Part shown: positions 27,890-61,232 of the stretch, piece by piece
Numbering within the stretch: the first letter of the stretch is position 1
How the letters are laid out: each line of letters starts with the position of its first letter
Assembly: GCA_021324185.1 (NCBI GenBank)
Contig: JAJPJN010000012.1
Location: 1 to 64,000 of the forward strand
Reading direction: 5' to 3'
Source of the DNA: Terriglobia bacterium
GTDB taxonomy: Bacteria > Acidobacteriota > Terriglobia > Bryobacterales > Bryobacteraceae
Length of the DNA: 64,000 bases
Translations under genes and position numbers: made by a program
Notes under the pieces: generated by a model
The model's input: the letters and a program-made list of their open reading frames with translations, nothing else
Database searches by the model: none
What the model was told of the DNA's origin: nothing

Positions 27890-27930
27890 TCCCGATTGAT
27901 TTGGGGGGGCGGCGTTCCGGTATCCAGGCT

Positions 27931-29832: not shown

Positions 29833-29865
29833 ACGAGCGTACTGACTAACTACACAGAGGATTAC

Positions 29866-43775: not shown

Positions 43776-44711
43776 TCATTGTGCTACCGCGGATCCATCA
43801 GGCCCGCGCATCGGATGCGGCTTGACCTCGCCGGCGGTCATGCCCAGCGCCCACTTGATCGCTTCGAAATACATCTTCTGGATGTCCGGATTGTCCCATG
43901 TACTGGCATCGTGAGCAAAGGACGAGTAGAAGACACGGCCTTTGCCGTACATCTTTGCCCAGGCTAAGGGTACATCTGTGCTGTTGTTGCCGCTGCCGCC
44001 TCGTTCAGTTACTGGTAGCTTGCTGGTGTCGAGCCTGAGCAGCACATCTATTTTGTCTCGCGAGAAGTCTTTCGCCCGGTAAAACTCATCTTTGATCGTG
44101 AAGACCGGCGGGAAATGCTTTGTTGCAGGAAACGTTGGCTCTTCATTAATCACTGAACCTTGCACATTTCCCCAGGGATGGCCATCGAAGCGGCCGCCCA
44201 GCAGTTCACCGAACTCGGGCCAGGATTCGAACGCAGTTAAGGCGGTATGCGCAGCTACGAAGCCCTTTCCTTCGTCATGGACAAAAGCCAGCAAATCGGC
44301 CTTTTGCTCGGAATCGAGCTCGATCTCCCGGTGGCCGAGAAAAAAGATGGCATCCACATTCTCCAGGCTGGGGCCACCGCTGGCGAGCTTGCCGTTGGTC
44401 ATCTTCGGATGTTTAGAAATAATGTTGGAATCTGTTCGTATGTACGCGAAGTAGGCGCCCGATTCATATCCGAGGCGCTCAATCACCGCCATCGCGTGCG
44501 ATACCGAGTCATGCTGAGCGATTCCGTTCCTGGTGTCAGCCCAAATCAGTATCGCCTTTTGGCCGTTCCGCCGCGCGCTTGGCGGTGGACCCTGCCGCCG
44601 TGCTTGGGGCGCATTGGAAGAAGTTTGCGCTGTGGCCGGTTGCGCCGTGGCCGCAAAAGCTGCTAACAAGAGAACGGTGCATAATCTAAACGGACGAGGG
44701 CGGCTGCGCAT
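43776..44711 (-). CDS. ThuA-domain protein (exported), copy 2
   Basis: About 311 aa from the ATG at 44711, which gives a signal peptide (PFRLCTVLLLAAFAATA). ThuA is a glutamine-amidotransferase-like (trehalose utilisation) fold: AILIWADTR, VDAIFFLGHRE, LLAFVHDEGKGFVAAHTA, FGELLGGRFDGHPWG, GKGRVFYSSFAHDASTW. The enzyme activity of ThuA proteins is unsettled; they cluster with sugar catabolism. It is a paralogue of the gene at 52029. A copy of the shared 22-bp element lies 42-63 bases upstream. Confidence 0.88.
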   Translation of the reverse strand: MRSRPRPFRLCTVLLLAAFAATAQPATAQTSSNAPQARRQGPPPSARRNGQKAILIWADTRNGIAQHDSVSHAMAVIERLGYESGAYFAYIRTDSNIISKHPKMTNGKLASGGPSLENVDAIFFLGHREIELDSEQKADLLAFVHDEGKGFVAAHTALTAFESWPEFGELLGGRFDGHPWGNVQGSVINEEPTFPATKHFPPVFTIKDEFYRAKDFSRDKIDVLLRLDTSKLPVTERGGSGNNSTDVPLAWAKMYGKGRVFYSSFAHDASTWDNPDIQKMYFEAIKWALGMTAGEVKPHPMRGPDGSAVAQ

Positions 44712-44752
44712 CTCCTCAGACGGTAACACCGAACGAGCGCCGGACAAACGGA

Positions 44753-44774
44753 TTAACGGTGACCTCACGGTTAC
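44753..44774 (-). promoter_or_regulatory. Copy C of the recurrent 22-bp element, upstream of ThuA-2
   Basis: Read on the minus strand it begins GTAACCGTGA and ends CACCGTTAA. It matches copy B at about 16 of 22 positions, and the core CACCGTTA is exact. It is also an inverted repeat in itself (TAACGGTGA-CC-TCACGGTTA). It lies just after the TPR-regulator stop. Confidence 0.5.
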
Positions 44775-44775
44775 A

Positions 44776-46545
44776 TCAACTGAGCCCTAACTGATAGGCG
44801 ACATAATCGAATCTGCTATCCGCGCGCAAAGCATCGAAGCGCGGATCGACTTTGATTGACATGAGCTCGAAGCACCGGTCCTGAACGGCCTTTCGGAGCC
44901 ACTCGAATCCCGATTCGGGTTCACCCAAGGCAAAGTAAATCGAGGCGAACTCAAACGGAGACACGTAGCGTTTTGTCGCGAGTTCGTTGAGTTCGCAAAT
45001 CGTATGTTGGACTTCGCTTCTTCTGCCCGACAATGCCAGCGTTCGCGCCAAAGCGGCTCGCATTCTGGGGCTGTTTGGCGATAGCTGAATGGCACGTTGA
45101 AATGCCGCCGCAGATTCCTCGAAATCCTTTCTCAATTCCTGGATAATGCCTAAGGTCCAGTACGCTGCTGAGAAGTGAGGATTTAATTCAACCGTGTGAT
45201 CGCATTGCTCGAGCGCGGCATCGAAATCGCGACGGTAATAATGAATCACCGCGAGATCGCGCGCAATGATGGGAGATACCGGATCGAGGGCTTGCGCCAG
45301 TAACAACTGCTGCAACGCTTCGTCGAGTCTTCCCAAGGGAGCGAGACACGAGATGCCGTACCAATGGTGAGCTGTTGGATAGCGCGGATCGAGCTGAATC
45401 GCCCTGCGAAATTCGCGTTCCGCTCCCAGCCAATCCCAATCCTGCGTTGATTTGACATGTGCCAGTGAGGCATGCGCTTCAGCGGATTTATCGTCCACCA
45501 GCACGGCGGTCGCGGCATTAGAAGCAGCTTTTGTCCATACTTCCGCCGGCGCAAGCACACCGTAATGACCCAGCAGCCCGTAGGCATCCGCCAAACCCGC
45601 ATAAGCCAGACAGTATTGAGCGTCCTCCCGAATCGCGCGTTCGAAAAATTCGGCTGCTTTGCGGAGCCCCTCTTCGGTGCGTTGATTCAGATGATAGCGG
45701 CCCTGCAAGTAAAGGTTGTAAGCCGCCAGGTTCTCCGTGGGGCGTTTTGCGGAGCCCGTGCCGCCGGAGGCCAACAATTCCGTCTTAAGTTGTTCCGCTA
45801 CCCTTTGTGCAATTTCTTCCTGTATAGATAGCGCATCGTCGCTGTTGCGGTCGAGCGATTCGGTCCAGAGAAAACAACCGCTCGCCGCGTCGATAATGTG
45901 TACCGTGACGCGCAAACGCGCGCCAGACTTACGAACGCCGCCAGTGACCACAAGAGCTGCATCGGCCGGCTCGGCTGGCTCACGCAACGTAGGCCTCTCG
46001 ATTCGAGAACGATCCCATGCAACCAGCCGTACATGCCCGAGTTTTGAGAGAGCGTGAATAATCTCGTCAGTTACGCCACGGCAGAAATAATCCTGATCGC
46101 CGCGTTCCGTATGATCGGCAAAGGGTGTCGCCACCGTGTTGCGGCTCACGAACGCAGCCGCCACCGACCGCCTGGGACCGGCCGCCTCAGTCTGTTTGAA
46201 AAGTGGCGCGTACCCGCCCTTCGGCAGTTCGATGTGAACGGCATCGCGCTGTCCTTCCTCGGCGTAATACTTCTCCAGGCGCGATCTCAATCGCCTTGCC
46301 TGTACGCGAACGATCGGGTCTGTACGCGGATCGAAAGAAGACTCTTTGTCGAAAACTTCCGTGCCGATTAGAAATTCTTTCAGTTGATCGCCACGCCCGG
46401 CGAGTGTTTCCCCGACAACAAACGCGAGAAACCGCTTCAGCCGGTCAGCCTGCTCAAAAGACTGGCTGGCCAAAACGCGCTCGAGATGCTCTTTCACGGC
46501 CTGCTCAGAACACTTCGCGGCGACAGGCATCGTGGCCCGGGACAT
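44776..46545 (-). CDS. Winged-helix/TPR regulator of the Acidobacteriota type
   Basis: 589 aa from the ATG at 46545 (or the ATG at 46530). The N-terminal 110 residues (EHLERVLASQSFEQADRLKR, DPIVRVQARRLRSRLEKYY, ELPKGGYAP) form the DNA-binding-like region typical of these proteins. Next is a TolB-like part (VVTGGVRKSGARLRVTVHII, FLWTESLDR, IQEEIAQRVAEQLK), then about eight TPR units to the C-terminus (NLYLQGRYHLNQRTEEGLRK and AHASLAHVKSTQDWDW among them). The role is presumably transcriptional regulation driven by protein contacts. It lies between the MFS operon and the ThuA gene, so it could control this island. Confidence 0.82.
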   Translation of the reverse strand: MSRATMPVAAKCSEQAVKEHLERVLASQSFEQADRLKRFLAFVVGETLAGRGDQLKEFLIGTEVFDKESSFDPRTDPIVRVQARRLRSRLEKYYAEEGQRDAVHIELPKGGYAPLFKQTEAAGPRRSVAAAFVSRNTVATPFADHTERGDQDYFCRGVTDEIIHALSKLGHVRLVAWDRSRIERPTLREPAEPADAALVVTGGVRKSGARLRVTVHIIDAASGCFLWTESLDRNSDDALSIQEEIAQRVAEQLKTELLASGGTGSAKRPTENLAAYNLYLQGRYHLNQRTEEGLRKAAEFFERAIREDAQYCLAYAGLADAYGLLGHYGVLAPAEVWTKAASNAATAVLVDDKSAEAHASLAHVKSTQDWDWLGAEREFRRAIQLDPRYPTAHHWYGISCLAPLGRLDEALQQLLLAQALDPVSPIIARDLAVIHYYRRDFDAALEQCDHTVELNPHFSAAYWTLGIIQELRKDFEESAAAFQRAIQLSPNSPRMRAALARTLALSGRRSEVQHTICELNELATKRYVSPFEFASIYFALGEPESGFEWLRKAVQDRCFELMSIKVDPRFDALRADSRFDYVAYQLGLS

Positions 46546-46546
46546 T

Positions 46547-46570
46547 ACAGTTCCATATTACGGAAACTGT
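46547..46570. promoter_or_regulatory. Inverted repeat at the start of the TPR regulator gene
   Basis: ACAGTTCC (46547-46554) and GGAAACTGT (46562-46570) form a near-perfect inverted repeat immediately upstream of the ATG at 46545. Possible autoregulatory operator, or a translational hairpin if transcription starts further upstream. Confidence 0.35.
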
Positions 46571-46596
46571 GTCGATTGCGAGTAGCAGCCGTTTCC

Positions 46597-47922
46597 TCAA
46601 ACGTTCTGCTCGCAATATGTCTCTTTCGTTAATGCAATCAGAACGCATGCCGCCGCCGCCCAAAGCACAATCAGCGTAAATGCCGCCTGAAACGCACTTG
46701 CGCTATAAATTCTTGTTCCGTTCAACATCTCTCCGCTCCAGCGCTTGTCCAGCACCCAGCCGATGCCGGGCTGCAGCAGAGTAGGACCCAGCATGTTTCC
46801 GATATTGGTTACTGCTGAGATCGTCCCCACATAACGGATTGGTACCTTCTCTTTGCTATAGGCGAACCCCAAAACACCCGAACCGCACGCCAGCGTTGTG
46901 ATTGCGGCGGCTATCACAAAGGCCCAGAGTGGCAGCCCCGGAACGTAGAACAGTGCAATCCAACCGATGGTCGATACGATCGCGCCGCCCAGATAGATCG
47001 GTTTTCGACGGCCGATCCGGTCAGACAGGCCGCCGCAAATTGGGCTCGCCACCGCCCAGCAGACGATCATGATGGAACATACTGCCGCTGCCGATTTCGC
47101 GCTCAGGCCATAACGGCGGGAAAGAAACGGAACGCCCCACAATCCGGTAAAAGAAAGCACCGGACCCACCATTCCGCCTTGTGCCAGAAAAATGAGCCAG
47201 GTATTTGTGTACCCGAAGACGCGACGCAGGCCTGTCGCTACAGCTCGAAAACTGGTTGCGGCGCGATCCCTTATTTCATCCGGAGCGTAGCTGCGAAATC
47301 CCTTATCAGCCGGATCGTTTTCGACCAGCATCCAGGCAAGCAGTCCCACGCCCAAGGTCACGATGCCCGAACCCACCACAGTGGCGCGCCACCCGAACGA
47401 TTCGATGAGCAGCCGTAGTGGAACCTGGGCAGTCAGTGATCCAATGTTGCCGATGAACAGGCCTAATCCGGAGAGCATCGCAAATTGCCGGCGCGGGAAC
47501 CAGTGTGTCGCAAGCTTCAGAATGACGAGCCAGCCAACGGCTGTTGCTCCGCCGATAATGGCGCGGCCAGTGCAGGCCAGTAGAAAAGACCCTGTGGCGC
47601 CGAAGAGAAAAGCTCCCAGAGCGGCGCTGAAGCAGCCTCCGATGAGTACTTTCTTGGCGCCCCAGCGGTCAAGCAGAATTCCTATCGGAATTTGCATCGC
47701 GACATACAAGTAAAAGTAGAAGGCGGACAGATTGCCGAGTTGTTTGGCGCTGATTCGAAAATCGCGCATCAACTCGCCTGTCATCACCGCTGGCGAAACG
47801 CGCTGGTAGAACGCGATGAGATAGAAGACCGCGCCGATGATCCAGACGAACCAACAAAGCCAAGCGGGAGGAGTGTGGGTGAGTCTCGGGGACTCCTTGG
47901 CGGCTGTGGCTCGGGAAGCCAT
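46597..47922 (-). CDS. MFS transporter
   Basis: 441 aa with 12 predicted membrane helices. It has the MFS loop motif after helix 2 (GILLDRWGAKKVLIGG) and its repeat after helix 8 (GGLSDRIGRRKPIYLGG). The family carries small anions and organic acids by proton symport. It is the last gene of the operon that starts at 51966, nine bases after the ThDP-enzyme gene, so it likely imports the substrate of those enzymes. The sulfoacetate carrier SauU is also an MFS protein next to an acylating aldehyde dehydrogenase, but this is only an analogy. Confidence 0.88.
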   Translation of the reverse strand: MASRATAAKESPRLTHTPPAWLCWFVWIIGAVFYLIAFYQRVSPAVMTGELMRDFRISAKQLGNLSAFYFYLYVAMQIPIGILLDRWGAKKVLIGGCFSAALGAFLFGATGSFLLACTGRAIIGGATAVGWLVILKLATHWFPRRQFAMLSGLGLFIGNIGSLTAQVPLRLLIESFGWRATVVGSGIVTLGVGLLAWMLVENDPADKGFRSYAPDEIRDRAATSFRAVATGLRRVFGYTNTWLIFLAQGGMVGPVLSFTGLWGVPFLSRRYGLSAKSAAAVCSIMIVCWAVASPICGGLSDRIGRRKPIYLGGAIVSTIGWIALFYVPGLPLWAFVIAAAITTLACGSGVLGFAYSKEKVPIRYVGTISAVTNIGNMLGPTLLQPGIGWVLDKRWSGEMLNGTRIYSASAFQAAFTLIVLWAAAACVLIALTKETYCEQNV

Positions 47923-47930
47923 CGCGATTG

Positions 47931-49718
47931 CTATTCGCCCTTGCGGTAGATGTCGTTGATGTTCCAGTAACCCGGAGTTGGTGTCGGCGCGTTTTCCATT
48001 GGAACCTGAATCACTGTGGGCACGCCCGACCCGAGCACTTGCCTTATAGCGGGACCGAGCTCACCGGCTGATTGAATTGCGATTCCTTGGGCGCCACAGG
48101 CGCGCGCCACGGCTGCGTAATCCAAGCTGTACGGCTTGCCGTTACACGAGAACATGCAACCGAAATCCCAACCATAGTGCATCGCTTCCAAACCGGCAAT
48201 GGTGCCGAATCCGGAATTGTCCATGACGATCCAAACGGCAGGGATATCCGCTTCCATGGCCGTCGCGATCACCGACATGTTGCTGCTGAAAGCCCCATCT
48301 CCGATCAGCGCTACCGCTGCCCGATTCGGTTCTGCGACCTTTACCCCCAGCACCGCCGAGGGTCCGAAGCCCATCGTTGCCAGACCGCTTGGCGTAATGA
48401 AGGTGCCGGGAACGGTGATCGGAAACTGTTGGCCCACGCCATTCTTGTTCCAGCCAACATCCGTTACCACAAACGCATCTTCCGGCAGTGCTTTTCTCAA
48501 CTCACTCAGAATCCGCTCCGGCCGCAGCGGAAACTGGTCTGATTCGCGCTGCTGAGTCCAATTGGAGGAAAACGCTTCGCGCCCGCGGCGAATTTCTTCG
48601 CGGAGTCCGGGCCGGCTCGGGTGTGTTTTCCCGGAGGCTGCAGCTGCTAAGGCTTCGAGCGCAAGTTTGGCGTCTGCCACTACACCCAATTCGGTCGGAT
48701 AGTTTCGGCCAATTTCTGCCGGATCGATATCCACGTGAATTAGCCGCGTAGGCGGAATCGAGAACGTATACCGCGGATCCCAGGAACTCGAATTTGCTTC
48801 TGCCAGGCGCGTTCCGATGGCAAGAATCAAATCTGCCGTCCGGCATTTTTCATTCGCGATCGGGGTGCCCCAAAATCCCGTCATCCCGAGCAGGAGCGGG
48901 TGATCTTCTCGCAAGCAGCCTTTGCCCATCAAGGTGTGTGCAACAGGTATCTCGAGTGACTCAGCGAGAGAGGCAAGCGCCGCAGAGGCGCGCGCGGACA
49001 GAACCCCGCCGCCCACATAAATGACGGGATTCTCCGCTGCGGCCAGCTTATCGATAATCTGATCGACTGCCGCCGCGTCTATATTCGGCCGGGCCATTGG
49101 CGCTGGAACGCTCCGGAACGCATCAGCAGCGAGATCGGAGGAAAAGATATCCATAGGGACATCCACCAACACTGGTCCTGGGCGCCCGGCTCGCGCAAGA
49201 TGGAATGCTCGCTCGGTGATGCGAGGCAAGTCTTCGACCCGGTCCACGCGGTAGACACGTTTACAGAACGGGCGGTAAATCTCATATTGGTCGGCGTCCA
49301 TATGCAGATTCACTTCCTGATGAGGATGCCGTCCGTAGTAGTAGGAAGGCACATCGCCGGCAAACACCACGAGCGGTATGGAATCGAGCGCAGCATTCGC
49401 TACGCCGGTGGTCGCATTTGTCAGCCCAGGTCCCAGGTGTGTTAACAAAACTCCTGTTTTGCCGGAAGCGCGCGCATAACCTTCTGCTGCGTGCGCGGCG
49501 ACCTGCTCATGACGCGTGGAGATAAACCGGATCCGGCTTTTGCCCAATGCATCGAGCATTGCGATCACCGTATGGCCACAAAGCCCGAAAACGACTTCCA
49601 CGCCAAGCCGTTCTAGATATTCGGCCAACAGATACGCTGCAATTCGCTTGCCTGGAGCGCCTCCGTTGCGGCTTTCGCTCGATGACAACACTGGACTCGA
49701 AGTACTCGTTTGCTGCAC
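47931..49718 (-). CDS. Thiamine-diphosphate enzyme, acetolactate-synthase-like
   Basis: 595 aa. Three-domain ThDP enzyme: an N-terminal PYR domain with catalytic Glu in RHEQVAAHAAEGYARA near 70, a central Rossmann domain (IYVGGGVLSARA), and a C-terminal PP domain with the cofactor motif IGDGAFSSNMS and MDNSGFGT. It acts on 2-oxo acids or aldehydes. Several residues (YYYGRHPHQEVNLHMDADQY) look specific to a subgroup I cannot name; it is not an obvious Xsc or IlvB. It sits between the aldehyde dehydrogenase and the MFS gene, suggesting that it makes or uses the aldehyde. Confidence 0.85.
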   Translation of the reverse strand: MQQTSTSSPVLSSSESRNGGAPGKRIAAYLLAEYLERLGVEVVFGLCGHTVIAMLDALGKSRIRFISTRHEQVAAHAAEGYARASGKTGVLLTHLGPGLTNATTGVANAALDSIPLVVFAGDVPSYYYGRHPHQEVNLHMDADQYEIYRPFCKRVYRVDRVEDLPRITERAFHLARAGRPGPVLVDVPMDIFSSDLAADAFRSVPAPMARPNIDAAAVDQIIDKLAAAENPVIYVGGGVLSARASAALASLAESLEIPVAHTLMGKGCLREDHPLLLGMTGFWGTPIANEKCRTADLILAIGTRLAEANSSSWDPRYTFSIPPTRLIHVDIDPAEIGRNYPTELGVVADAKLALEALAAAASGKTHPSRPGLREEIRRGREAFSSNWTQQRESDQFPLRPERILSELRKALPEDAFVVTDVGWNKNGVGQQFPITVPGTFITPSGLATMGFGPSAVLGVKVAEPNRAAVALIGDGAFSSNMSVIATAMEADIPAVWIVMDNSGFGTIAGLEAMHYGWDFGCMFSCNGKPYSLDYAAVARACGAQGIAIQSAGELGPAIRQVLGSGVPTVIQVPMENAPTPTPGYWNINDIYRKGE

Positions 49719-49726
49719 AGTCGCTC

Positions 49727-51154
49727 CTAAAAGATCTCGCTGTTAAAAAATTCGCCGAATAGCTCTTCATCAGACGGGCGGTCCTCCGGTATGGGCCGGC
49801 TTACCCAGGTGACGTTCATGTAATGCTTCAGCGAAATATTTTCGTTAGTAATGTTTCCGCCCCAATAACCACAACCCATGCTCGACGTCTGCGGCATGCC
49901 GTTTGTAAATGAGCCGGCATTCGCCTTTGATTGCGGCTGCCGGACCATGATCCGGCTGACTGGGGCCATTAGCGCCAGACGATTGATGTGATCGTCATCG
50001 AAGGAATAGATGCCGCAAGAGTGGCCTTTGCCACCGACTTCAAAGATCTGGCGAACCATATCCAGCGCCTGATCGAAACCGGAGTATTTAAAAATCGCCA
50101 AAACCGTGCCGAGTTTCTCGCTCGAAAAAAGGTGTTCTTTGCCGATCTTGTCTTCTTGTACGATCAAAAACGTCTTATTGGCAGGAATGCTGAAGCCGGA
50201 TAGTTCGGCAACGCGCGCAGCCGGCCTGGCAATTGTTTCGGGTGTGCGATGGCCCTCCGCATCCCAGTAAGCGCGCCGCAACAACTCTTTTTCGCGCTCG
50301 TCGACAAGATACCCGCCTTCTGCCTGGAGTTGCTTGAGAAAAGCATCGTAAATGGATGCCTCGACCAACAGGTTGCCGTCCGCCGAACAGCCCGAGCCGT
50401 TATCATTTGTCTTGCTGATTCGCGTATTCCTGGCTGCCTCTTCGATGTTTGCGGTTTCATCTATCACCATCGTGGCGTTGCCTGCCCCAACGCCATAAGC
50501 GGGTTTACCGGAGCTGTAGGCTGCGCGCACCATAGGCTGGCCGCCAGTGGCAATCGTGAAGTCGCAGATAGCCATCAACTCCTGCGCCAACGGAATGCTG
50601 GGCTTCTCTATGCACTGCAGTAAGTCTTCGGGAGCACCTGCGTTTTTGAGCGCGGCACGCATGATTCGCACGGATTCGTTGGTCGTTTTTTTGCTTGCAG
50701 GATGCGGCGAGAATATGACCGCATCCTTGCACTTGACGGCATAAATTGCGGTAGTGGCCGGAGTAACATACGGGCTTGTAACCGGTATCAAAGAAGCGAT
50801 CACGCCGCCAGGTTTCGCATATTTGACAATGCCTTTCTCCGGAATCTCTTCAATCACCCCCATACTCTTTTGCCGTAAGGCATCCCGCAAAACGCTGAGA
50901 ATCTTCGCGCGTCTGGAGGGCTCCCGCCCGCCCATGCCGCTCTCGTCAACGCTCATGTTGGCGAGCCGCATTGCGGTCTGCTCATTGCCCATGGCCCAGG
51001 CAATCGCGCGACAGAGCCGGTCCACAGCAGTTTGATCGTAATGATCGATTGCAGCCATGGCCGCCCTCGCCTTATGCAGTAAGTTCCGGGCGTAAGCTCG
51101 TTCTTCTGCTGTTATTTCCCGTTTGCCGGCTGGGGTTGCTGTTACAGTTGCCAT
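49727..51154 (-). CDS. Acylating (CoA-dependent) aldehyde dehydrogenase
   Basis: 475 aa of the EutE/AdhE/SauS type, oxidising an aldehyde to acyl-CoA with NAD(P). The catalytic Cys is most likely in NDNGSGCSADGN near 265. Cofactor and fold motifs: VIASLIPVTSPYVTPATTAI, FSPHPASKKTT, GKPAYGVGAGNATMVID and HSCGIYSFDDDHI. The C-terminus GCGYWGGNITNENI resembles sulfoacetaldehyde/acetaldehyde dehydrogenases. It precedes the ThDP enzyme by eight bases and follows the citrate-synthase-like gene by 41 bases. The substrate is not defined. Confidence 0.85.
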   Translation of the reverse strand: MATVTATPAGKREITAEERAYARNLLHKARAAMAAIDHYDQTAVDRLCRAIAWAMGNEQTAMRLANMSVDESGMGGREPSRRAKILSVLRDALRQKSMGVIEEIPEKGIVKYAKPGGVIASLIPVTSPYVTPATTAIYAVKCKDAVIFSPHPASKKTTNESVRIMRAALKNAGAPEDLLQCIEKPSIPLAQELMAICDFTIATGGQPMVRAAYSSGKPAYGVGAGNATMVIDETANIEEAARNTRISKTNDNGSGCSADGNLLVEASIYDAFLKQLQAEGGYLVDEREKELLRRAYWDAEGHRTPETIARPAARVAELSGFSIPANKTFLIVQEDKIGKEHLFSSEKLGTVLAIFKYSGFDQALDMVRQIFEVGGKGHSCGIYSFDDDHINRLALMAPVSRIMVRQPQSKANAGSFTNGMPQTSSMGCGYWGGNITNENISLKHYMNVTWVSRPIPEDRPSDEELFGEFFNSEIF

Positions 51155-51195
51155 CTCTCCCTCAGGTTTTCGAATTCATTGGAACTTTTTGTCTT

Positions 51196-51966
51196 TTAAC
51201 GAAGAGGCCGCGGTGGCGGGCCGTCATAGACCGTCGGAATTTTGATCCTCATCGGCTTTTCGCGGCTGTGCTCTTCCGCCACCTCCGCCGTTATCCCGGC
51301 AACTCTGCCGATGATGAACACCAGCTTGCCGAAAGCAGAGGGAAATCCCAGATCATAAAGAATTGCCGCCAGCGCGCCATCGATGTTGACTGGAAGTACT
51401 TTCCGCCGTACGGCGGCGGCCTTTTCAAGCGCCTCCATAAATGCAACGCCGTCCCGGGCCAAGCCGCTCTCGCGGGCCATATTAAAGAGCGTTTCGGTTC
51501 GCGGATCACGCTCCTTGTGGACCCGGTGGCCCAAACCAGGCAGGCGTTTGCCCGCCGAGCGAAAATCATCGAAAATCCGGAGCGCAGCTTCTTCCATCGA
51601 AATATTTCCGGAACCGGCGAGTTTTGTGCCGGCAGCAATGAGCTCCATGCAATCGGCCCCCGCGCCCCCGTGCTCGTCGCCGATAGCCAAAACACCGGCC
51701 GCAACTGCTGCCGATAGCGATTCACGGTTTCCCGATGCCACGAGCCTTGCCGCGGCGCACGAAGGTGCACCCGCCCCGTGATCGGCTACTGCAATCAGAA
51801 TCGCGTCGATCAATCTTCGTTCCGCCGCACTCGGCAACCGCGATTGGTGTAGTAGAAACACCACATCCGCGAATGTCGTGCCCTGCATCAGAGCCGTTAT
51901 TTCGTATCCCCGAATCCAGAGATTGCTCTGGTCGGAATTCGCAATTGCCGATCGCCAAGGCTCCAT
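51196..51966 (-). CDS. Citrate-synthase-like / citryl-CoA lyase family protein
   Basis: About 256 aa from the ATG at 51966, much shorter than full citrate synthase (about 430). It keeps the active-site parts: LWIRGYEITALMQG, DEHGGAGADCMEL, GLGHRVHKERDPR with catalytic His, and NIDGALAAILYDLGFP with catalytic Asp. The enzyme would condense an acyl-CoA with oxaloacetate or cleave a citryl-CoA-like ester. AGGAGG lies about 30 bases upstream of the ATG, so a non-AUG start nearer to it is possible. It is the first gene of the operon ending at 46597. Copy A of the 22-bp element is 56-77 bases upstream. Confidence 0.82.
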   Translation of the reverse strand: MEPWRSAIANSDQSNLWIRGYEITALMQGTTFADVVFLLHQSRLPSAAERRLIDAILIAVADHGAGAPSCAAARLVASGNRESLSAAVAAGVLAIGDEHGGAGADCMELIAAGTKLAGSGNISMEEAALRIFDDFRSAGKRLPGLGHRVHKERDPRTETLFNMARESGLARDGVAFMEALEKAAAVRRKVLPVNIDGALAAILYDLGFPSAFGKLVFIIGRVAGITAEVAEEHSREKPMRIKIPTVYDGPPPRPLR

Positions 51967-52021
51967 AAGTGTCTCGATTATGTGATCAATCCTCCTTACC
52001 GGGCAAGCATGGAGGGCCAAC

Positions 52022-52043
52022 GTTACCGTTACCGCACCGTTAC
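52022..52043 (+). promoter_or_regulatory. Copy A of the recurrent 22-bp element, upstream of the citrate-synthase-like operon
   Basis: It begins GTTACCGTTACC and ends GCACCGTTAC: three hexamers CGTTAC at offsets 0, 6 and 17. It is identical to copy B at 20 of 22 positions. It overlaps the stop codon of the ThuA gene (52029) and lies 56-77 bases before the ATG at 51966. Confidence 0.6.
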
Positions 52044-52907: not shown

Positions 52908-54412
52908 TGCGTGCTGCCGAATTGATACGACGATAGCGATACCTTTCCAAACCAGCTTCCCTGGAAGCCGGCGCGTGTATCGCCCCAAACCGCATAAAGA
53001 TCACTCGACGTAAGATCGATTCCGTCATTATCGTCGTTGTGGGCATCGCGGTAATACTGCCGGGGCAGCGAGCGGCCGTGGCTGATCTTGAGAGGCGCAC
53101 TAAATGTGTGGCCGCCATCTTTCGAAATGGAAGACCACGCCTCAAAGCTCTCGTCGCCTGGATAAACCGCCTTCCATACTATGCCTAATACGCCGCCCTG
53201 CCGCGAATACTTCCATGCGGGTTTGATGAACCGAATCGCATTCGGCACGGTGCCGGTTGATACGAATTCCGACCAGGTTTTTCCGTTGTCGTTGGTAGTC
53301 GTGACATCGTAATGCGGTGATGGTGTGGCGATGTAGCGCATTGCGGAGAAACGGCCCGAGGTAGTCGGGTCGGCGATCAGATTGCCTGGAATGCCGCCTC
53401 CGTCGGGACCGCCGCCGCCGCGCCCGGCAGCGGAAGCCGGAACTGTGATGTTTTTCAAAACGTGCCGGTCCCACACCTTTCCTTCGTTTCTGCTGATGCC
53501 GAAAACTAAACAGGGACAAGTTGCCCCTTCGCTATTCGGCACTCCGCTTGCCACATACATCTCGGCGATGGTCCCTTGACCCGCGGCAAAACTGGCACGT
53601 GTCAACTGCGGCCACTCCGGGCTATCGAGCGCATAAATTGTTCCAAAGCTATGCGCCTTATCGTGCGAAGCCGTGAAATAAGATTGCGTACGGTACTTAC
53701 CCGGCGTACCTGTATCAATATCCGTCTGCCCTCCGGAGTTCATCAGGTAAATTGTGCCGGTGCTGTCGTCAAAGTAGACCCAGGGCCGGTCCCAGGGAGA
53801 ATTGCCCCCAAAGCGCGGCTTCAGGCTCTTGTCGAACTGCGGGTAAGGCGGCTTGTTGTAGGAATTGATGCCGTCTACGCGTTTGCTCCAGGTCTTGCCG
53901 TGATCGTATGAGACCACCACTGCCGCTTCGCCGAACGGATCAATTTTTACGGGGTCAGTTTCGCGCGGTTCGCAGCCCATGATGAGAATGCCATCCTTCG
54001 TTGCTCCGGCAAACGGATCAGGGCAGCGAGTGAATTTGCCGCTCAGGATCGGCAGAATAAAATGTGTCCAGGTACGGCCGCCGTCATGCGTGATGGCGCT
54101 CACCGGCAATGTGGAGTAAGGAAAGTTGTGAAAGTCCTTGCAATTCACATCCGGCGCTTCGCATCCCGGCATGATCTGCCAGGTGCCCATGCCGGTGGCA
54201 ACGATAGTCTTTGGATCGGTTGGATCAATAACAAATTGCGCCTCACCAGATCCGCGCGTTTCGTCGCCCAGAAGCAGATACTCGTCTGAAACCGGCTTCG
54301 GTGGAACCAGCGCCGGTCGAAAGCCGGGCGGTGGCTGCTCCGCCTGCGGCTGGGGAGCCTGAGCAATCACGAGGGATGTAACGGCTGCAATGACTAATAA
54401 TGCTCGTTTCAT
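52904..54412 (-). CDS. Exported BNR/sialidase-like beta-propeller protein
   Basis: About 502 aa from the ATG at 54412 with a signal peptide (KRALLVIAAVTSLVIAQA). It has several Asp-box/BNR repeats of the form S-x-D-G-G-x-T-W or close variants: ITHDGGRTWTHF, VSYDHGKTWSKR, TTTNDNGKTWSEF, ISKDGGHTFSAP. These form a sialidase-type six-bladed propeller. I cannot see the arginine triad needed to call an active sialidase, so this may be a sugar-binding or other glycosidase-like protein. It is 12 bases after the TonB receptor stop and coupled to ThuA. Confidence 0.8.
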   Translation of the reverse strand: MKRALLVIAAVTSLVIAQAPQPQAEQPPPGFRPALVPPKPVSDEYLLLGDETRGSGEAQFVIDPTDPKTIVATGMGTWQIMPGCEAPDVNCKDFHNFPYSTLPVSAITHDGGRTWTHFILPILSGKFTRCPDPFAGATKDGILIMGCEPRETDPVKIDPFGEAAVVVSYDHGKTWSKRVDGINSYNKPPYPQFDKSLKPRFGGNSPWDRPWVYFDDSTGTIYLMNSGGQTDIDTGTPGKYRTQSYFTASHDKAHSFGTIYALDSPEWPQLTRASFAAGQGTIAEMYVASGVPNSEGATCPCLVFGISRNEGKVWDRHVLKNITVPASAAGRGGGGPDGGGIPGNLIADPTTSGRFSAMRYIATPSPHYDVTTTNDNGKTWSEFVSTGTVPNAIRFIKPAWKYSRQGGVLGIVWKAVYPGDESFEAWSSISKDGGHTFSAPLKISHGRSLPRQYYRDAHNDDNDGIDLTSSDLYAVWGDTRAGFQGSWFGKVSLSSYQFGSTQ

Positions 54413-54423
54413 ATCGGATCTAA

Positions 54424-57400
54424 TCAAAAGCTGTATTTAAGCGCAAACTGCAGAATACGCGGATCGAGCGCGCTTTGGATAACTCCGAATGTCGATAAGG
54501 AACTCATCGTCGATCCCGGATTATTGAATCGTGCATGGTTAAACACGTTGAATGCCTCCGCCCGAAAGTCCATCTGCTGGCGCTCGCTAATGCGGAAAAT
54601 GCGTGATAGCGCTGCATCCAAATCCCAGGCTCCGGGGCCCTGAAGAATGTTCCGGCCCATGTTGCCAAACTGTCCCGCGGGCGGCACTGCAAATGCTGAC
54701 GTGTTGAACCAGTGTTGAATGCTCGGGTTAGTCAGATTTGGATCCGCGATCACGTTGGGCCGTGTTACTACGCCAAGCGTGTTGTCCTGGCCTGTCGAAA
54801 CCGAAAAGTAGCTACCGGTCTGGGCAGTGAAAATCGGTGCGATCTGCCATTCCGCAAACAACACGCGTAACAGCGCCGATTGAAATACCGGTACCCGCGC
54901 GATCAACGAAAGGTTGAAGACCTCACGAAGGTCGCTGGCGCAATTTCCGTAGTCGCTATGTGGATCGTTCGGGATCTGCGGAACGCCAGTGCCGTTTAGC
55001 CCGATTTCAACCTCGTCCAGACAGTGCGACCAGGTGTAATTCCCCAGCACAGTGAAGTTGTGAGTAAACGGGTGCTGTACCGAAATCAATAAGCCGTTAT
55101 AATTTGCGTTCGCTCCGTAGCCGATGTTTGTTATCGCGCCGTAGTATTGGCCTTGCGACGGGTTTGCCAGATACAGGGCGCGACGAAAGTTTTCGTTGCC
55201 CGTCGTCGAACAGGGTCCCGCTTTTGTTAAGCCGTATTGACCCGCGGCGCAATTTCCAGCAATGTACACGACCGGATTATCAGACTCGCCAACTTCAAGG
55301 TGAACAGTGCGGTTACCCAGGTAAGTGGCCGAAACCAGCCAACCGCCGGCAAATTGTTTTTGTACAGATAAGTTCCATTGCTCCATGTAGGTTGGCTTAG
55401 GATGCAGATCGAAAGCGCCCAAGCCACCGCCGAAGAGCGGAAACTGCACGTTGGCCGGGGGCGGATTGGGCGTCGGGAACGGATTTCCTGTCAGGACGCC
55501 ATTGCAGCCCTTATAAGGGTTGGACAATCCTCCGTTCGCCGTGCCACAGGTGATTGTTCCCGCCCAGGGGGAATGAGTTCCGAGCTGCAAAAACAGCGGC
55601 GTGCCGCCGTAAAAGATGCCATAACCGGCCCGAATCGATTCTCTCCCTTGGCCTCGCGGATCAAAGACGAGCGCCACGCGCGGCGCAAACTCGGCCAGCT
55701 TTCTTTCGGCGTAAGATGCTCCTGGCATCCCAGGATCACCATAGAAAAGCGTACCGGCCGGCGCGTTAATGAACCGTTGACTGTGAATGCCGGCATAGAA
55801 CCAGCCAAGATCAAAGATGCTCTCGGTATGATCCGTGTTGTATGGCGGTAGATAGGGGTCCCAGCGCAGCCCGGCATTTATGCCGAATCGCGGGCTTACA
55901 CGCAAATTATCCTGGACATAAAGCGATGGCTGATTCACCCGCTCGTGCAACACTTGACCGTTGCTCTGAAGAGTGGACGAAGGAAGGCCAAGCAGAAAAT
56001 CGGCCATCGGAAGACCACCGGCCTGCAATACGTTACCGTTAAAGCTGAAATTATCGTTGCCCTGATAGCCCCCGTAGCCGTTCAACTGATTGTAGATCCA
56101 GTTGCCCCCAAAAATAACCTGGTGCTTATCGTGCACAACTGTCACGTCTTCGGCGATCTGGTAATTGTTTGACAGGAAATGGCTGGGTGCGCAATTCGTG
56201 CATGCAACGCCAAACGCCCCGGTCACAGTGAAGTTCAGATAATTCGGCGTATTTGCCGTAATGTTGGGCGTTATCCCCGCTTGTTGCTGTAACTGCGCTG
56301 GAGTTGGTACGCTCGACGGTAGGTACCGGAACACCGTAGATCGCGAAAAGCCGATCCGAAATGCACTTACAACCTTCGGATTGACTGCGAATGTATCGCC
56401 GATTACGGCAGACTGCACGCGGTCAGCAAGGCCCACCGTGTTGTCAGGCAAAACCGATGTCGTGTTATTGGACACCGTAAGCAAGTCGCCCTGGTAATAT
56501 GGCGCATGCGAGAAGTTGGTAATGAAATAGCGCGTGAACAAGGAATTACGGTCACTCTTTTGCCAATCGATTCTTGCCGTCCCCTGGTTATCGCTGCTGA
56601 AAACAGGCACCGTGAAGAAAACCTGGCCGCATGCATTGACCGGCGGTGAGTTGGGCGCTAAGGGCGGAAGCAATTTAGTGAGTTGTAACGCGACCGGATT
56701 CAAAAGTGCCGGGCTGATCCTGTTGTTTACAAAGGGAGAGGCAAGCGTGATCTGCCGGCCTCCATTGCAGGAAGGCGAAGCAAGCGCTGTGAAATCCCCG
56801 CTCAATGCCGCCAAGGTCGGCACATAGGTGAAGTTGGCTGCAGGTGAGATGTGCTGGATCGTCCCTTGATAGCCTGCAAAGAAAAACAACCGGTTGTGAA
56901 CGATCGGTCCTCCGATTGCCCCGCCGAACTGGTTGCGCTTAAGGCCGTCTCCAGTCGATGCAAAAAAATTTCTGGCGTTGGTGGCCGAATTGCGCAAAAA
57001 CTCAAACACGGTCCCATGAAAGGTGTTCGTTCCAGACTTGGTAACCACATTTACGACGCCACCTGGCTGGCTGCCATAATTGGCGGGCAACGAACTCGTT
57101 TCGACCTTGAATTCCTGCAGCGAGTCCGGCATGGGCATCGGCAAACTCACGTTGGATACAGGGTCCATATGAATCGCTCCATCCAGTACAAACAGAGTTT
57201 GACCACCTTGTGCACCGGCGATAGACACCGCCGTTGCGCCCGGATAATTCTTGTTTGAGACCAGGTTCTGCCCCACGGTCGGATTTGTCGAGGTGGTTGC
57301 CGCGCCGGATAGCGTGATCAACTGCGTCACATTGCGGCCGTTCAGCGGCAGATCCACTATTTTTGCTTGATCCACCACCTGACCGACACCGGCGTTGTGC

Positions 57401-57784
57401 GTTTCCACCATAGGCACATCAGCTTCAACCGTAATCTCCTGCGACACCGAGCCGATTTCCAATTTCACCGGAATAGTGGGATTAGTATCCACCTGCAATA
57501 CAATGCCGGATTGGACATACGACGCGAAACCGCTTTTTGTAACTTCGAGCCGGTACGTTCCGACAGGCAGACTAGTCAACGTGTAAGCCATCGCTGCCCG
57601 TAACGGCGGTACGTGCCGATCCGGTCCCGGTGTTTGTAACCGTCACTTGGGCCTCCGGTATCGCGGCTCCGTTCGGGTCAACAACCGTGCCGGAGATCTG
57701 CGAGACCTGCGACGTTTGCCCACTTGCCAGCGCAAATGTAAAGACAATAAAGCTACAGCAAATTACGGTTCTCACGAACTTCAC
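54424..57784 (-). pseudogene. Oar-like TonB-dependent receptor with one-base frameshift near its N-terminus
   Basis: The long frame (57591 to 54424, 1055 aa) starts mid-domain at AYTLTSLPVGTYRLEVTKSG. The missing N-terminus is in another frame, from a GTG at 57784 (TTG 57817 also possible): a signal peptide (FVRTVICCSFIVFTFALA), SQISGTVVDPNGAAIPEAQV and TAVTGSDG. The frames meet at 57585-57592; a single-base change joins them. The rest is intact: carboxypeptidase-like domain, plug (VVDLPLNGRNVTQL-like), barrel ending RILQFALKYSF. The family imports bulky ligands through the outer membrane. It heads the operon with the BNR and ThuA genes. Confidence 0.8.
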
Positions 57785-57822
57785 GGTAATTCTAGGCGCG
57801 AACGGAGCACGCGGCAAGACGT

Positions 57823-57830
57823 GTAACGGT
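57823..57830 (-). promoter_or_regulatory. Half-site of the recurrent element
   Basis: GTAACGGT, the reverse complement of ACCGTTAC, lies 39 bases before the GTG of the minus-strand TonB receptor. It may be a second contact for the factor binding copy B at 57891. Confidence 0.25.
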
Positions 57831-57890
57831 ATCGATACTGTGCCCGCCGCTCATTTCGCCCAACGGGGGTTCTATGGGGCCAATCCCCCC

Positions 57891-57912
57891 GTTACCGTAA
57901 CCACACCGTTAC
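57891..57912. promoter_or_regulatory. Copy B of the recurrent 22-bp element, between divergent TonB receptor genes
   Basis: It begins GTTACCGTAACC and ends ACACCGTTAC, matching copy A at 20 of 22 positions. It sits in the 193-bp divergent region, 66-87 bases before the plus-strand receptor start and 107-128 before the minus-strand one, so one factor could control both. Confidence 0.6.
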
Positions 57913-57966
57913 AACCGTTGTGGAGCACGGCATTCGCTGTTAGCATTGCCCTGAAACGCGAACTTC

Positions 57967-57973
57967 GGGAGGT
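57967..57973 (+). promoter_or_regulatory. Ribosome binding site deciding the TonB receptor start
   Basis: GGAGG in GGGAGGT lies about five bases before the GTG at 57978. The open frame extends upstream to 57630, across the promoter and the neighbouring gene, but this site and the signal peptide mark the true start. Confidence 0.7.
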
Positions 57974-57977
57974 CCGT

Positions 57978-60900
57978 GTGAGATCTGTCCTACGACTTTT
58001 TTTGTTCTGCGCGCTGTCCGTTCCACTCGTCCGGGCCCAAGGGGTATCAACCTCACAGATCAGCGGCGTGATACAGGACGCAAGCGGTTCCGCCGTTCCG
58101 GGCGCGCAAATCACACTGACGCAGACCGAAACCGGCGCCGTCCGAACAGAGATGTCCGGGCCGGACGGTAGCTACACCATGGCGAATCTGCCCGTCGGCC
58201 ACTATCAATTGCAGGTAGAAAAGCAGGGCTTTACCAAATTTCTTCAATCCGGTATCGAATTGCAGGTCAACACCAACCCGGTGATCAACGTGACCTTGCA
58301 AGTCGGTTCCACCTCCCAGCAAGTCGTGGTCGAAGCCAGCGCCGCCATGGTGGAAACGCACGAAAGCGGCGTCGGCCAGGTGATCGATCAGCACAGTGTG
58401 GTGGAGCTGCCGCTGAATGGCCGTCAGGCGACGGATCTTATCGTCCTCTCCGGCGCCGCCAACACGGCGCCCGCCGGCGATCTAAATACAAATAAGAACT
58501 ATCCAACCGTGACTTTGTCAGTTGCGGGTGGACTAGCGAACGGAATGACATACGTGATGGATGGCGGGACACACAATGACCCGTTCAATAATTTGAACCT
58601 GCCGTTTCCTTTTCCCGATGCCCTGCAGGAATTTAAAGTAGAAACCAGTGCGTTACCGGCTCAATACGGGCAGCACGCGGCGGCGGCCGTGAACGTAGTC
58701 ACCAAGTCCGGCACCAATCAGTTTCACGGCGATGCATTTGATTTTTTACGTAACGGAATCTTCAACGCACGGGATTTTTTCGCGACTTCACGTGACAATC
58801 TAAAGCGCAATCAATTTGGAGGCACGATCGGCGGCCCGATACTGAGAGACAAAATGTTCTTCTTCGCTGGCTATCAGGGGACAATCGTTCGCTCGAATCC
58901 TCCCTCGACCGTCAGTTTCGTGCCTACTCAAGCCATGTTGAACGGCGATTTCACCGCATTCGCGTCGGCCGCATGTAATGGCGGTGTTCCAAGGAATTTG
59001 GGCGCGCCGTTCGTTGCCAACCGCATTCCAACCAACTTAATTAGCCCCATCACGCTGAAAATACTGCAACACGTACCGCTTTCTACCGACCCGTGCGGCA
59101 GACTCACCTACTCCATTCCGCAAAACAGCCGGGAGCACCAGGTGCTTGGACGAATCGATTATCTATTCAACACCAAGCACACGCTGTTCGGCCGGTACTT
59201 CATCGCCAATTACAATAAGCCCGCCTTCTATAACGGCGCCAACGTTTTGACTACAAGCCAAGTGGGCCAATCCGATCAGGATCAAGCTTTCGTTCTGGGC
59301 GACAATTATGTGCTCTCCGCAACCACAGTAAACTCGTTCCGGGGAACGGTATTCCGGACCCGCGGGTTGCGTGTCGTTCCACCTTTCTTCGGACCGCAGG
59401 ATTTGGGCATACAAGCTGTGGGCGCTATTCCGGGATTTATCGGCATAAGCCTTTCGGGCGCCAATTTTGCCATCGGGGCGGGAGCGACAAATCCCGGCTA
59501 CTTCAATTCCACCGGTTGGCAGCTTGCAGACGACTTCAATGTAATCCGCGGCTCGCACCAGCTTGCCTTTGGAGTAAGTTGGATACATGCCATCACAAAC
59601 ACGGTCAATAATCGGCCTACAAACGGCCAATATACCTTCAGCGGGCAAACCACAGGTCTGGCTCTGGCCGACTTCATGATCGGATCCGTAAGCGGCGGAT
59701 TTGTACAAGGCGCGCCCGATCTCGACAACGAAAGGCAAAACTATATCGGGTTATATGCGCAGGATTCCTGGAAGATGAATTCCCGGCTAACGATTAGTTA
59801 CGGGCTTCGGTGGGAGCCTTTTCTGCCACTCAGAAACGCCAATGGCTATGTGAATCACTTTGATCCCGTGGCTTTCGCCCAGGGAGTTCACACCTCCAGC
59901 TATACGAATGCTCCTGCCGGTCTGCTCTTCCCTGGCGATCCCGGCTATCCGGATAACTCGACCACCTTTCCCAGATGGGCCACCTTCGCACCGCGATTCG
60001 GTCTGGTTTGGGATCCCAAAGGCGACGGTAGGATGACCATCCGGAGTTCCTACGGAATCTTCAATGATTTTCCCCAGACCTTTTTCAACACAAGATTTTC
60101 AAACAATCCGCCGTGGGGCGCACAGATCAGCATAAGCAATCCTAGCGGCGGATTTGCCAATCCCTGGTTGGGCTATCCGGGAGGCGATCCTTTCCCGGCG
60201 CTCTATACACTTTCTAAAAGCGCGCCGTTTCCCTTATTTGGGGTCTATGTGAACAACCCTCTGCATGTGCACACGCCCTATCTCCAGCAGTGGGACCTCA
60301 GCATTCAGAAGCAGCTTGGCTCGAACATTCTTCTTTCCGCCAGCTACCTGGGCAATACGACCACCCACTTATGGACTGGCACAGAGGAAGATCCGGCCGT
60401 CTATATACCCGGAGCTTCAACCACTAGCAATACCAACCAACGCCGCGTGCTCTATCGCCTCAATCCCGCACAAGGCCAGTATTATTCCACCATCGGAATG
60501 CTCGACGATGGCGGCAAAGCGCATTACAATGGACTGCTTCTCACCGTGCAGAAACGGCTTAGCAATAACTTCAGCGCGCTTGCGAATTGGACCTGGTCAC
60601 ATTGTATTAGCGATCCGGAAACCACCGAGTTGACCGGACCCACTTACGTCAATCCGGCAAATCGTTCCCAGGATCGAGCCAACTGCGATTCAGATGTCCG
60701 TCACGTATTTAATCTTTCCTTTATCGCGAATTCGCCTCACTTCAGCAATCATCTGGTGAACACGGTTGCAGGAGATTGGCGCCTTTCCACAATCTTCCGG
60801 GCGCATACCGGGAATTACTCTACTGTTACAACGGGAGTGGATAACGCTCTTACCGGCATCGGTGGACAACGTCCGAACCTGCTGCTGGCAAGTGTCTACG

Positions 60901-61232
60901 GGCCGGGTCAGATGGTAACTGATTACCTCACCAGGCTGGCATTTGCTTCTCCATTAACGGGAACTCTGGGCAACTTAGGCCCGCTGAACATTGAGAACCC
61001 CGGGTTAATTCAGGTCGACATGGCACTCTCGCGTATTTTTCCCATCGTTGAGCATCAGAGCATCGAGATCCGTTGGGAAGTATTCAATGTGCCTAATCAC
61101 TTGAATCCCGCTGCGCCCAACACAACTCTCAGCTCCGGGTCATTCGGTCAAATCACAAGTGACATTAATGGAGCAAGCGGTCAAACTGGCGATCCCAGAA
61201 TTATGCAATTTGCATTGAAGTACGTATTCTAA
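57978..61232 (+). CDS. Oar-like TonB-dependent receptor, intact copy
   Basis: 1084 aa from the GTG at 57978. Signal peptide (LRLFLFCALSVPLVRAQ), carboxypeptidase regulatory-like domain about 20-110 (ISGVIQDASGSAVPGAQITL, GSYTMANLPVGHYQLQV), plug domain with ELPLNGRQATDLIVLSG and YVMDGGTHNDPF, then a long barrel ending RIMQFALKYVF. It resembles the frameshifted receptor at 54424 in layout, so it is a divergent paralogue. The ligand is unknown; the adjacent PQQ dehydrogenase and BNR proteins suggest sugars or alcohols. Confidence 0.93.
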   Translation: MRSVLRLFLFCALSVPLVRAQGVSTSQISGVIQDASGSAVPGAQITLTQTETGAVRTEMSGPDGSYTMANLPVGHYQLQVEKQGFTKFLQSGIELQVNTNPVINVTLQVGSTSQQVVVEASAAMVETHESGVGQVIDQHSVVELPLNGRQATDLIVLSGAANTAPAGDLNTNKNYPTVTLSVAGGLANGMTYVMDGGTHNDPFNNLNLPFPFPDALQEFKVETSALPAQYGQHAAAAVNVVTKSGTNQFHGDAFDFLRNGIFNARDFFATSRDNLKRNQFGGTIGGPILRDKMFFFAGYQGTIVRSNPPSTVSFVPTQAMLNGDFTAFASAACNGGVPRNLGAPFVANRIPTNLISPITLKILQHVPLSTDPCGRLTYSIPQNSREHQVLGRIDYLFNTKHTLFGRYFIANYNKPAFYNGANVLTTSQVGQSDQDQAFVLGDNYVLSATTVNSFRGTVFRTRGLRVVPPFFGPQDLGIQAVGAIPGFIGISLSGANFAIGAGATNPGYFNSTGWQLADDFNVIRGSHQLAFGVSWIHAITNTVNNRPTNGQYTFSGQTTGLALADFMIGSVSGGFVQGAPDLDNERQNYIGLYAQDSWKMNSRLTISYGLRWEPFLPLRNANGYVNHFDPVAFAQGVHTSSYTNAPAGLLFPGDPGYPDNSTTFPRWATFAPRFGLVWDPKGDGRMTIRSSYGIFNDFPQTFFNTRFSNNPPWGAQISISNPSGGFANPWLGYPGGDPFPALYTLSKSAPFPLFGVYVNNPLHVHTPYLQQWDLSIQKQLGSNILLSASYLGNTTTHLWTGTEEDPAVYIPGASTTSNTNQRRVLYRLNPAQGQYYSTIGMLDDGGKAHYNGLLLTVQKRLSNNFSALANWTWSHCISDPETTELTGPTYVNPANRSQDRANCDSDVRHVFNLSFIANSPHFSNHLVNTVAGDWRLSTIFRAHTGNYSTVTTGVDNALTGIGGQRPNLLLASVYGPGQMVTDYLTRLAFASPLTGTLGNLGPLNIENPGLIQVDMALSRIFPIVEHQSIEIRWEVFNVPNHLNPAAPNTTLSSGSFGQITSDINGASGQTGDPRIMQFALKYVF

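Follow-up and report, generated by a model that had tools for sequence, protein, structure and literature searches.

A conserved 22-bp palindrome as operator of a local catabolic regulon in a Terriglobia bacterium, with a tetratricopeptide repeat protein as its predicted regulator

A 22-bp element recurs in front of several transcription units of a catabolic island in a soil-type Terriglobia bacterium (GenBank assembly GCA_021324185.1, contig JAJPJN010000012.1), and the question raised by this locus is whether the copies are the operators of a regulon and, if so, which protein would bind them. The island lies within positions 1 to 64,000 of the contig, and this whole stretch of 64,000 nucleotides is referred to below as the window. 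The original prediction, made by eye, had placed three copies (here A, B and C; see Table 1 for coordinates) with 20 of 22 bases matching between A and B and about 16 of 22 for C, and had proposed that the shared element ties several island units into one regulon. The palindromy of the element, a fourth site (D), the promoter geometry and the conservation in relatives, all described below, were added to that prediction. The palindrome is almost certainly a functional, conserved operator. The explanation favoured as a whole, and considered likely, is that it would be the operator of a pathway-specific regulator with a compact local regulon, bound by the protein with tetratricopeptide (TPR) repeats encoded at 44776-46545, a regulator of a type that has been little studied, which would act as an activator.

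A conserved palindrome in the island

Pairwise comparison confirmed the positions of the three copies and their degree of likeness (A/B 20/22, A/C 16/22, B/C 16/22), with CACCGTTA common to all of them. Copy C matched both A and B at 16 of 22 bases in either orientation, and the element was therefore recognised as an imperfect 22-bp palindrome, the strict pattern of which is KTWACSGT-N6-ACSGTWAM (two 8-bp half-sites and a 6-base spacer). Operator A shares bases with the stop codon of the ThuA open reading frame upstream of it (ORF; 52029-52988), and operator B is situated 106 bases from the GTG (57784) of the leftward outer-membrane gene. Operators C, A, D and B would each serve one promoter, the predicted targets being ThuA (C), the operon encoding a citryl-CoA-lyase-like protein, an aldehyde dehydrogenase, a thiamine-diphosphate (ThDP) enzyme and an MFS transporter (A), and the leftward (D) and rightward (B) outer-membrane genes.

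With 60 copies in the 4.70 Mb draft genome, the 8-mer CACCGTTA means little by itself. The strict palindrome was found exactly three times, always within the island, and the reversed control gave 0 matches. When up to three mismatches to GTWACSGT-N6-ACSGTWAC were allowed there was no genome-wide excess (95 matches vs 250 in the reversed control), so that the signal is local. The strict pattern had been relaxed to fit the sites in the window and in relatives, and was therefore tested on independent data. One test used a symmetric weight matrix made from 41 distinct sites (at most one mismatch) in 30 loci, with the window and a same-genus relative (L052) left out. On the plus strand of the window this matrix ranked B, C and A at the top (26.5, 25.2 and 25.1 bits) and D fourth (15.0 bits), followed by a score of 8.9, while 200 simulated windows peaked at 18.8 bits and none of them reached the third site. 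One other site in the same genome (C114:10794; one mismatch, 20.2 bits) lies at converging ORFs and overlaps the 3' end of one of them (L001), and was therefore not counted as a promoter site. An 11-bp direct repeat, CGTTAC-N5-CGTTAC, was also considered and was given up for the palindrome (12 genome matches at up to one mismatch vs 36 in the reversed control).

Related loci were fetched with the aldehyde dehydrogenase (49727-51154), and the best 80 of 122 (L052-L131) were sorted by label and gene matches into 34 loci with island genes (535 kb) and 46 other loci (829 kb). Two of the island loci carry the label Opitutus/Opitutae (L075, L080) and one the label Cyanobacteria (L069). By label, the other loci are mostly Proteobacteria, Desulfo-lineages and Chloroflexi, and their matches at E<=1e-20 are confined to the aldehyde dehydrogenase (all 46 loci), the ThDP enzyme (41 loci) and a distant citrate-synthase-like protein (nine loci). 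There were 32 strict palindromes in the 34 island loci and none in the 46 others. In the island loci, 2000 permuted half-sites gave a mean of 0.0175 matches, and the four permutations that gave more than one (10, 5, 5 and 5) were near-copies of the motif; a spacer of 6 bases gave 32 matches, compared to three with 5 bases, one with 7 and none with the other spacers tested.

In several genomes the element precedes orthologous genes more often than the composition control does, and it keeps its place ahead of the same genes while gene order varies among relatives. It was observed between outer-membrane and citryl-CoA-lyase-like genes in L056, L057, L060 and L067 (and in L071 with one mismatch), between ThuA and an outer-membrane gene in L058, L061 and L062, and between the regulator and the ThDP gene in L056 and L060 (and in L137 with one mismatch). 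Overlap with a matched gene was seen for only two of the 32 strict sites, and amounts to 1 base at the 3' end of a ThuA gene (L052) and 14 bases at the aligned start of an aldehyde dehydrogenase gene (L068). Further sites elsewhere in dehydrogenase-bearing genomes adjoin outer-membrane, ThuA, ThDP or regulator genes (L132, L133, L135, L137, L138). Sites also occur in pairs 53-68 bp apart (D/B in the window, 68; L056, 68; L132, 64; L066, 53), the second copy always being the weaker. In genus g42, an 8-5-8 form of the operator, with a 5-base spacer, is present in three genomes (L053:5636, L059:5711, L024:3692).

Four points weigh against the favoured explanation. The 34/46 split was drawn when the palindromes in the loci were already known; under the rules applied, an operator is missing from seven of the 34 island loci; one of 14 one-mismatch sites falls inside an outer-membrane gene (L056:7147); and strict sites in L134 and L139 (L139:8741) have no typical close neighbour. 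Were the copies due to a chance likeness of GTTACC-rich stretches, or to a recent local duplication, the several CGTTAC words in A and B and the slight excess of the 11-bp repeat in the window (46 vs 33.4 expected, at up to three mismatches) would be accounted for; however, the centres and flanks of the copies differ, related loci keep the element with a constant spacer and a constant phase relative to the promoter, and this explanation, already contradicted by the island-locus counts and the independent matrix, is extremely improbable.

Promoter geometry and mode of regulation

The position of the operator relative to its promoter was analysed in 75 site-gene pairs from the window and 26 of the 34 island loci, comprising all sites that scored 15 bits or more and had a gene start no more than 420 bp away. 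Gene starts were the matched starts (in the window, the read starts), and cases with divergent genes or two sites were counted more than once. A TANNNT hexamer starting 26-28 bases past the palindrome in the direction of the gene was present in 41 of the pairs (27 at offset 27 and 12 at offset 28), while other three-wide offset windows gave a mean of 2.2 and a maximum of 10. TGNTANNNT was most frequent at offset 24 (19/75) and TTG at offset 4 (17/75). The -10-like hexamers of the window are at offset 27 for C, 28 for D and B, and 39 for A (CATAAT); over all 75 rows ATAAT was commonest at offsets 27, 39, 28 and 40, albeit in small numbers (4, 4, 3 and 3). Given the usual position of the -10 element, the operator is centred near -51 and, at the operon, near -62, one helical turn further on. 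Together with the conservation described above, this fixed distance to the -10 element strongly supports the proposal that one shared element joins several island units in a regulon.

The operator usually ends some 4-5 bp ahead of a weak -35 element and 27-28 bp ahead of the -10 element. As it stands directly upstream of a weak -35 element and at a fixed -10 distance, the regulator is most likely an activator, and this geometry makes activation of the island promoters the likely mode of control. Against this, 34 of the 75 pairs have no TANNNT at offsets 26-28. A repressor that binds the palindrome, blocks polymerase and is freed by an inducer would suit an operator adjoining the -35 region, where some repressors bind, but the site ends ahead of the -35 element, the -10 hexamers are at fixed distances and the ATAAT peaks lie about one helical turn apart, as for a polymerase-facing activator (again in small numbers), and repression is judged unlikely.

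The predicted -10 hexamers are 8, 10 and 4 bases ahead of the start codons at 44711, 51966 and 57784, respectively, and at so short a distance the three mRNAs may be leaderless.

The candidate regulator

The original prediction had also stated that the window has no classical LacI/GntR-type regulator. No LacI- or GntR-type regulator (nor any of IclR type) was found among the main window ORFs scanned, a set that does not cover all small ORFs, but LuxR, ECF-sigma and MerR/TipAS genes are present. These three were considered as island regulators and rejected, being found in none of the 34 island loci. The gene at 44776-46545, whose TPR product the original prediction had put forward as a possible binder, was present in 14 of the 34 island loci and in none of the 46 others; no other regulator of the window was found to accompany the island.

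Co-occurrence was assessed in 237 genomes of the family, a match at E<=1e-150 being taken as presence of the regulator. Of the 21 genomes with the aldehyde dehydrogenase, 19 have the regulator and 14 the strict palindrome; of the 216 without it, three and seven do, respectively (regulator 19/3/2/213, p=6e-23; palindrome 14/7/7/209, p=8e-13). Regulator and strict palindrome were likewise associated (13/9/8/207, p=9e-11). In three genomes (G148, G228, G151) a site begins 84-91 bp ahead of the matched regulator start, in each case in the gap that separates the regulator from the divergently oriented ThDP gene, and in L084 a one-mismatch site is about 105 bp from the regulator start, which suggests autoregulation there. 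Two genomes without the aldehyde dehydrogenase carry strict palindromes just ahead of outer-membrane genes, with a gene for a protein with the same N-terminal domain (approximately 49% identity; L144, L147) at 0.16 kb (G094) and 1.9 kb (G142) from the palindrome; the regulator family may therefore share an operator code. A third palindrome-bearing genome without the dehydrogenase (G212) is a 62%-complete assembly, in which outer-membrane and regulator fragments adjoin the site.

In the regulator, the only Pfam matches over the cut-off are TPR-type repeats. No Pfam family reaches its cut-off for the N-terminal domain (46192-46500, residues ~16-118), which is separate and highly conserved, with the stretches FDPR.DPIVRV.ARRLR and PKGG Y.P invariant in twelve orthologues; 14 matches to it, one of them partial, were found in the same genome (L177-L190). 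Comparison with the sequences of solved structures gave no meaningful match (best E 0.15). In an AlphaFold2 model (mean predicted local distance difference test score 83.5), residues 9-118 form four helices followed by a beta hairpin. A search for similar folds with the whole model apparently gave only TPR or similar helical-repeat chains among the matches listed, and is therefore uninformative on this domain. A profile comparison by hhalign, for which 12 Trans_reg_C domains were taken from the same genome, placed the stretch from LIGTEVFD via VRVQARRLRSRLEKYY to IELPKGGYA on their last helix and wing (E 0.0012, probability only 19.5%). PF00486 gave weak matches to two of 21 domain relatives (best E 0.007) and 16.2 bits to a paralogue (cut-off 26.2), and did not match the window regulator itself; the Pfam cut-off was not reached. 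The domain may thus be a divergent OmpR-like winged helix, an assignment that is weak and counts against the favoured explanation.

By this explanation, a dimer of the domain would grip both half-sites, and the middle and TPR part of the protein would sense a pathway compound, the presumed inducer. Sequence comparison shows the palindrome itself, how it is conserved and phased with promoters, and that it co-occurs with the regulator; binding, the mode of dimerisation, activation and the inducer are inferred. Several further points tell against the explanation as a whole. Seven of the 21 dehydrogenase genomes, all of genus g42, have no strict palindrome; one of them (G153) has a one-mismatch copy, three (G124, G194, G179) have 8-5-8 versions and three (G187, G206, G207) have only a half-degenerate site in the stretches examined. 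In four of the seven genomes that have the palindrome and no dehydrogenase (G009, G050, G170, G232), the matches seem to be due to chance. There is no site above 9 bits in the flanks examined (up to 1.5 kb) of 16 of 26 regulator loci, and one genome (G030) has palindromes and no regulator match at the threshold used. The last two of these counts, and an inverted repeat that is atypical of OmpR-type domains, would be expected if the operator were real but bound by an unlinked regulator of a classical family, with the TPR protein merely resident in the island. This is rather improbable, though slightly less so than repression: the TPR protein occurs in 19 of the 21 dehydrogenase genomes, palindromes recur near genes for the same N-terminal domain in two genomes that lack the dehydrogenase, and the MerR, LuxR and ECF genes are absent from all island loci, in a survey that covered the regulators of the window. 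On balance, the TPR protein quite probably binds the palindrome.

Island genes, possible pathway and known counterparts

Table 1. Operators, promoters and genes of the window (distances are to probable start codons; operator scores are from the independent matrix)
Feature	Position	Strand	Details
Operator C	44753-44774	-	TTAACGGTGACCTCACGGTTAC on plus strand; 41 bases ahead of ThuA ATG 44711; 25.2 bits
Operator C promoter	from 44747; 44725-44720		-35-like TTGTCC; -10-like TACCGT
Operator A	52022-52043	- (+ in copy comparison)	55 bases ahead of citryl-CoA-lyase-like ATG 51966; 25.1 bits
Operator A promoter	51982-51977		-10-like CATAAT; about one helical turn further off than at C, D and B
Operator B	57891-57912	+	65 bases ahead of rightward outer-membrane gene GTG 57978; 26.5 bits
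Operator B promoter	from 57918; 57941-57946		-35-like TTGTGG; -10-like TAGCAT
Operator D (weaker copy)	57823-57844	-	38 bases ahead of leftward outer-membrane gene; 15.0 bits
Operator D promoter	57794-57789		-10-like TAGAAT
LuxR-type regulator gene	27769-28590
ECF-sigma gene	36920-37618
MerR/TipAS gene	39433-40200
ThuA-family protein	43776-44711	-	Predicted target of C; PF06283
Probable operator-binding regulator (predicted)	44776-46545	-	N-terminal domain, middle part, C-terminal TPR repeats
MFS transporter	46597-47922	-	PF07690
ThDP enzyme, acetolactate-synthase superfamily	47931-49718	-	Profile and structure-sequence matches
Acylating aldehyde dehydrogenase, SauS-like	49727-51154	-	NF047625 459.9 bits, below cut-off 600
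Citryl-CoA-lyase-like protein, first operon gene	51196-51966	-	Predicted target of A; PRK06224.1-6 275.2 bits, above subfamily cut-off 212; 6hxp 1e-45
Second ThuA-family protein	52029-52988	-	Profile match
BNR-repeat protein	52904-54427	-	Profile match
Leftward outer-membrane receptor-like protein	54424-57784	-	Predicted target of D; reading frames, similar to rightward one
Rightward outer-membrane receptor-like protein	57978-61232	+	Predicted target of B; CarboxypepD_reg and OMP_b-brl_4
Pyrroloquinoline quinone (PQQ) dehydrogenase-like protein	61250-63457	+	Nearest glucose/quinate/shikimate family; TIGR03074 478.6 bits, below cut-off 832.65

The genes of the island are listed in Table 1. The frame of the leftward outer-membrane gene is broken near 57590, its signal-peptide part and body being in different frames (57570-57784), which may be due to a sequencing error or a broken gene. 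A sulfonate pathway was considered and rejected: the SauS score is below its cut-off, and Xsc is absent from the best 25 of 53 models for the ThDP enzyme. This enzyme is related to cyclohexane-1,2-dione hydrolase (2pgn, 3.7e-56) and is closer to BbmA, acetolactate synthase and glyoxylate carboligase.

Within the DNA examined around the aldehyde dehydrogenase, a hydroaromatic gene was found in 38 of the 46 other loci compared to one of the 34 island loci (tblastn, E<=1e-8). QuiC-like genes were present in 16 of the other loci, AroQ in 24 and AroE in 21; three QuiC-like proteins that were checked fell below the QuiC cut-off, while two AroQ proteins passed theirs. These neighbours point, speculatively, to hydroaromatic acids, AroE and AroQ also being housekeeping enzymes. 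The window PQQ dehydrogenase was matched in 21 of the 34 island loci.

Among the 80 loci, 36 had only a citryl-CoA-lyase-like gene, 29 only a 3-hydroxy-3-methylglutaryl-CoA (HMG-CoA)-lyase-like gene, none both and 15 neither (p=6e-11), as if the two types replaced each other beside the same aldehyde dehydrogenase. The exclusion was also observed within the 46 other loci (9, 27, 0 and 10; p=8e-5) and in the 49 loci of at least 17 kb (22, 21, 0 and 6; p=8e-9), and taxonomy accounts for part of it. Both HMG-CoA-lyase-like search proteins pass their subfamily cut-off (256 and 292 bits vs 246). Of seven island loci without the citryl-CoA-lyase-like gene, two (L066, L096) have the HMG-CoA-lyase-like gene and five have neither. 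Both lyase types can cleave a tertiary 3-hydroxyacyl-CoA. A quinate-type acid, which has a tertiary hydroxyl and a carboxyl group, would fit ring hydrolysis, acylation and citryl-CoA-like cleavage. In such a route the acid would be imported via the outer-membrane proteins and oxidised by the PQQ dehydrogenase, the ThDP enzyme would hydrolyse its ring in the manner of cyclohexane-1,2-dione hydrolase, and the resulting aldehyde would be converted to a CoA thioester, the tertiary hydroxyacyl-CoA finally being cleaved by the citryl-CoA-lyase-like enzyme. It is only tentatively suggested that the regulon controls a hitherto undescribed route for quinate-type hydroaromatic acids that involves no aromatisation, and that the regulator which switches it on is the first member of an uncurated DNA-binding-domain/TPR family to be assigned an operator.

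Elsewhere in the window, a sigma-70-type factor with DUF6596 is apparently split over two ORFs (36920-38177). The stretch 28760-30771 holds a subtilase ORF and, after it, one with PatG domains, together similar to parts of cyanobactin-type maturation proteases.

The analysis turns a repeat seen by eye into a testable cis-code made up of a motif, a promoter geometry that is fixed and a single candidate regulator, and the motif also marks which genes belong to the pathway. As the N-terminal domain has 14 matches in its own genome and matches no Pfam family above the cut-off, assigning an operator to one member makes predictions possible for the family. No description of the motif, the regulator or the pathway was found in the accessible portions of the open-licence literature, including those of PMC3174227.

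Among known systems, the OmpR/PhoB winged helix (PF00486) is approached by the window domain, the last helix and wing of which align weakly with Trans_reg_C. The window protein differs in that it has no PF00486 match and no receiver domain was found in it. OmpR-type domains usually bind direct repeats, and an inverted repeat of 22 bp would be unusual for them; the direct-repeat site expected of this type was not seen here, the operator being a palindrome with a fixed spacer. CadC/HilA-like one-component regulators combine a DNA-binding domain with a C-terminal sensor or TPR part, and the window regulator resembles them in having an N-terminal DNA-binding-like domain and C-terminal TPR repeats. 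Its residues 200-446 match the HilA/EilA model NF009037, although at 69.6 bits against a cut-off of 589 and outside the N-terminal domain. Regulons of LacI- or IclR-type regulators have been delineated by comparative genomics, as set out in the accessible parts of two reports (PMC4052901, PMC8222616); although no LacI- or IclR-type gene is among the window ORFs scanned here, the island shares with those regulons a pathway gene set defined by a palindrome that is kept before orthologous genes.

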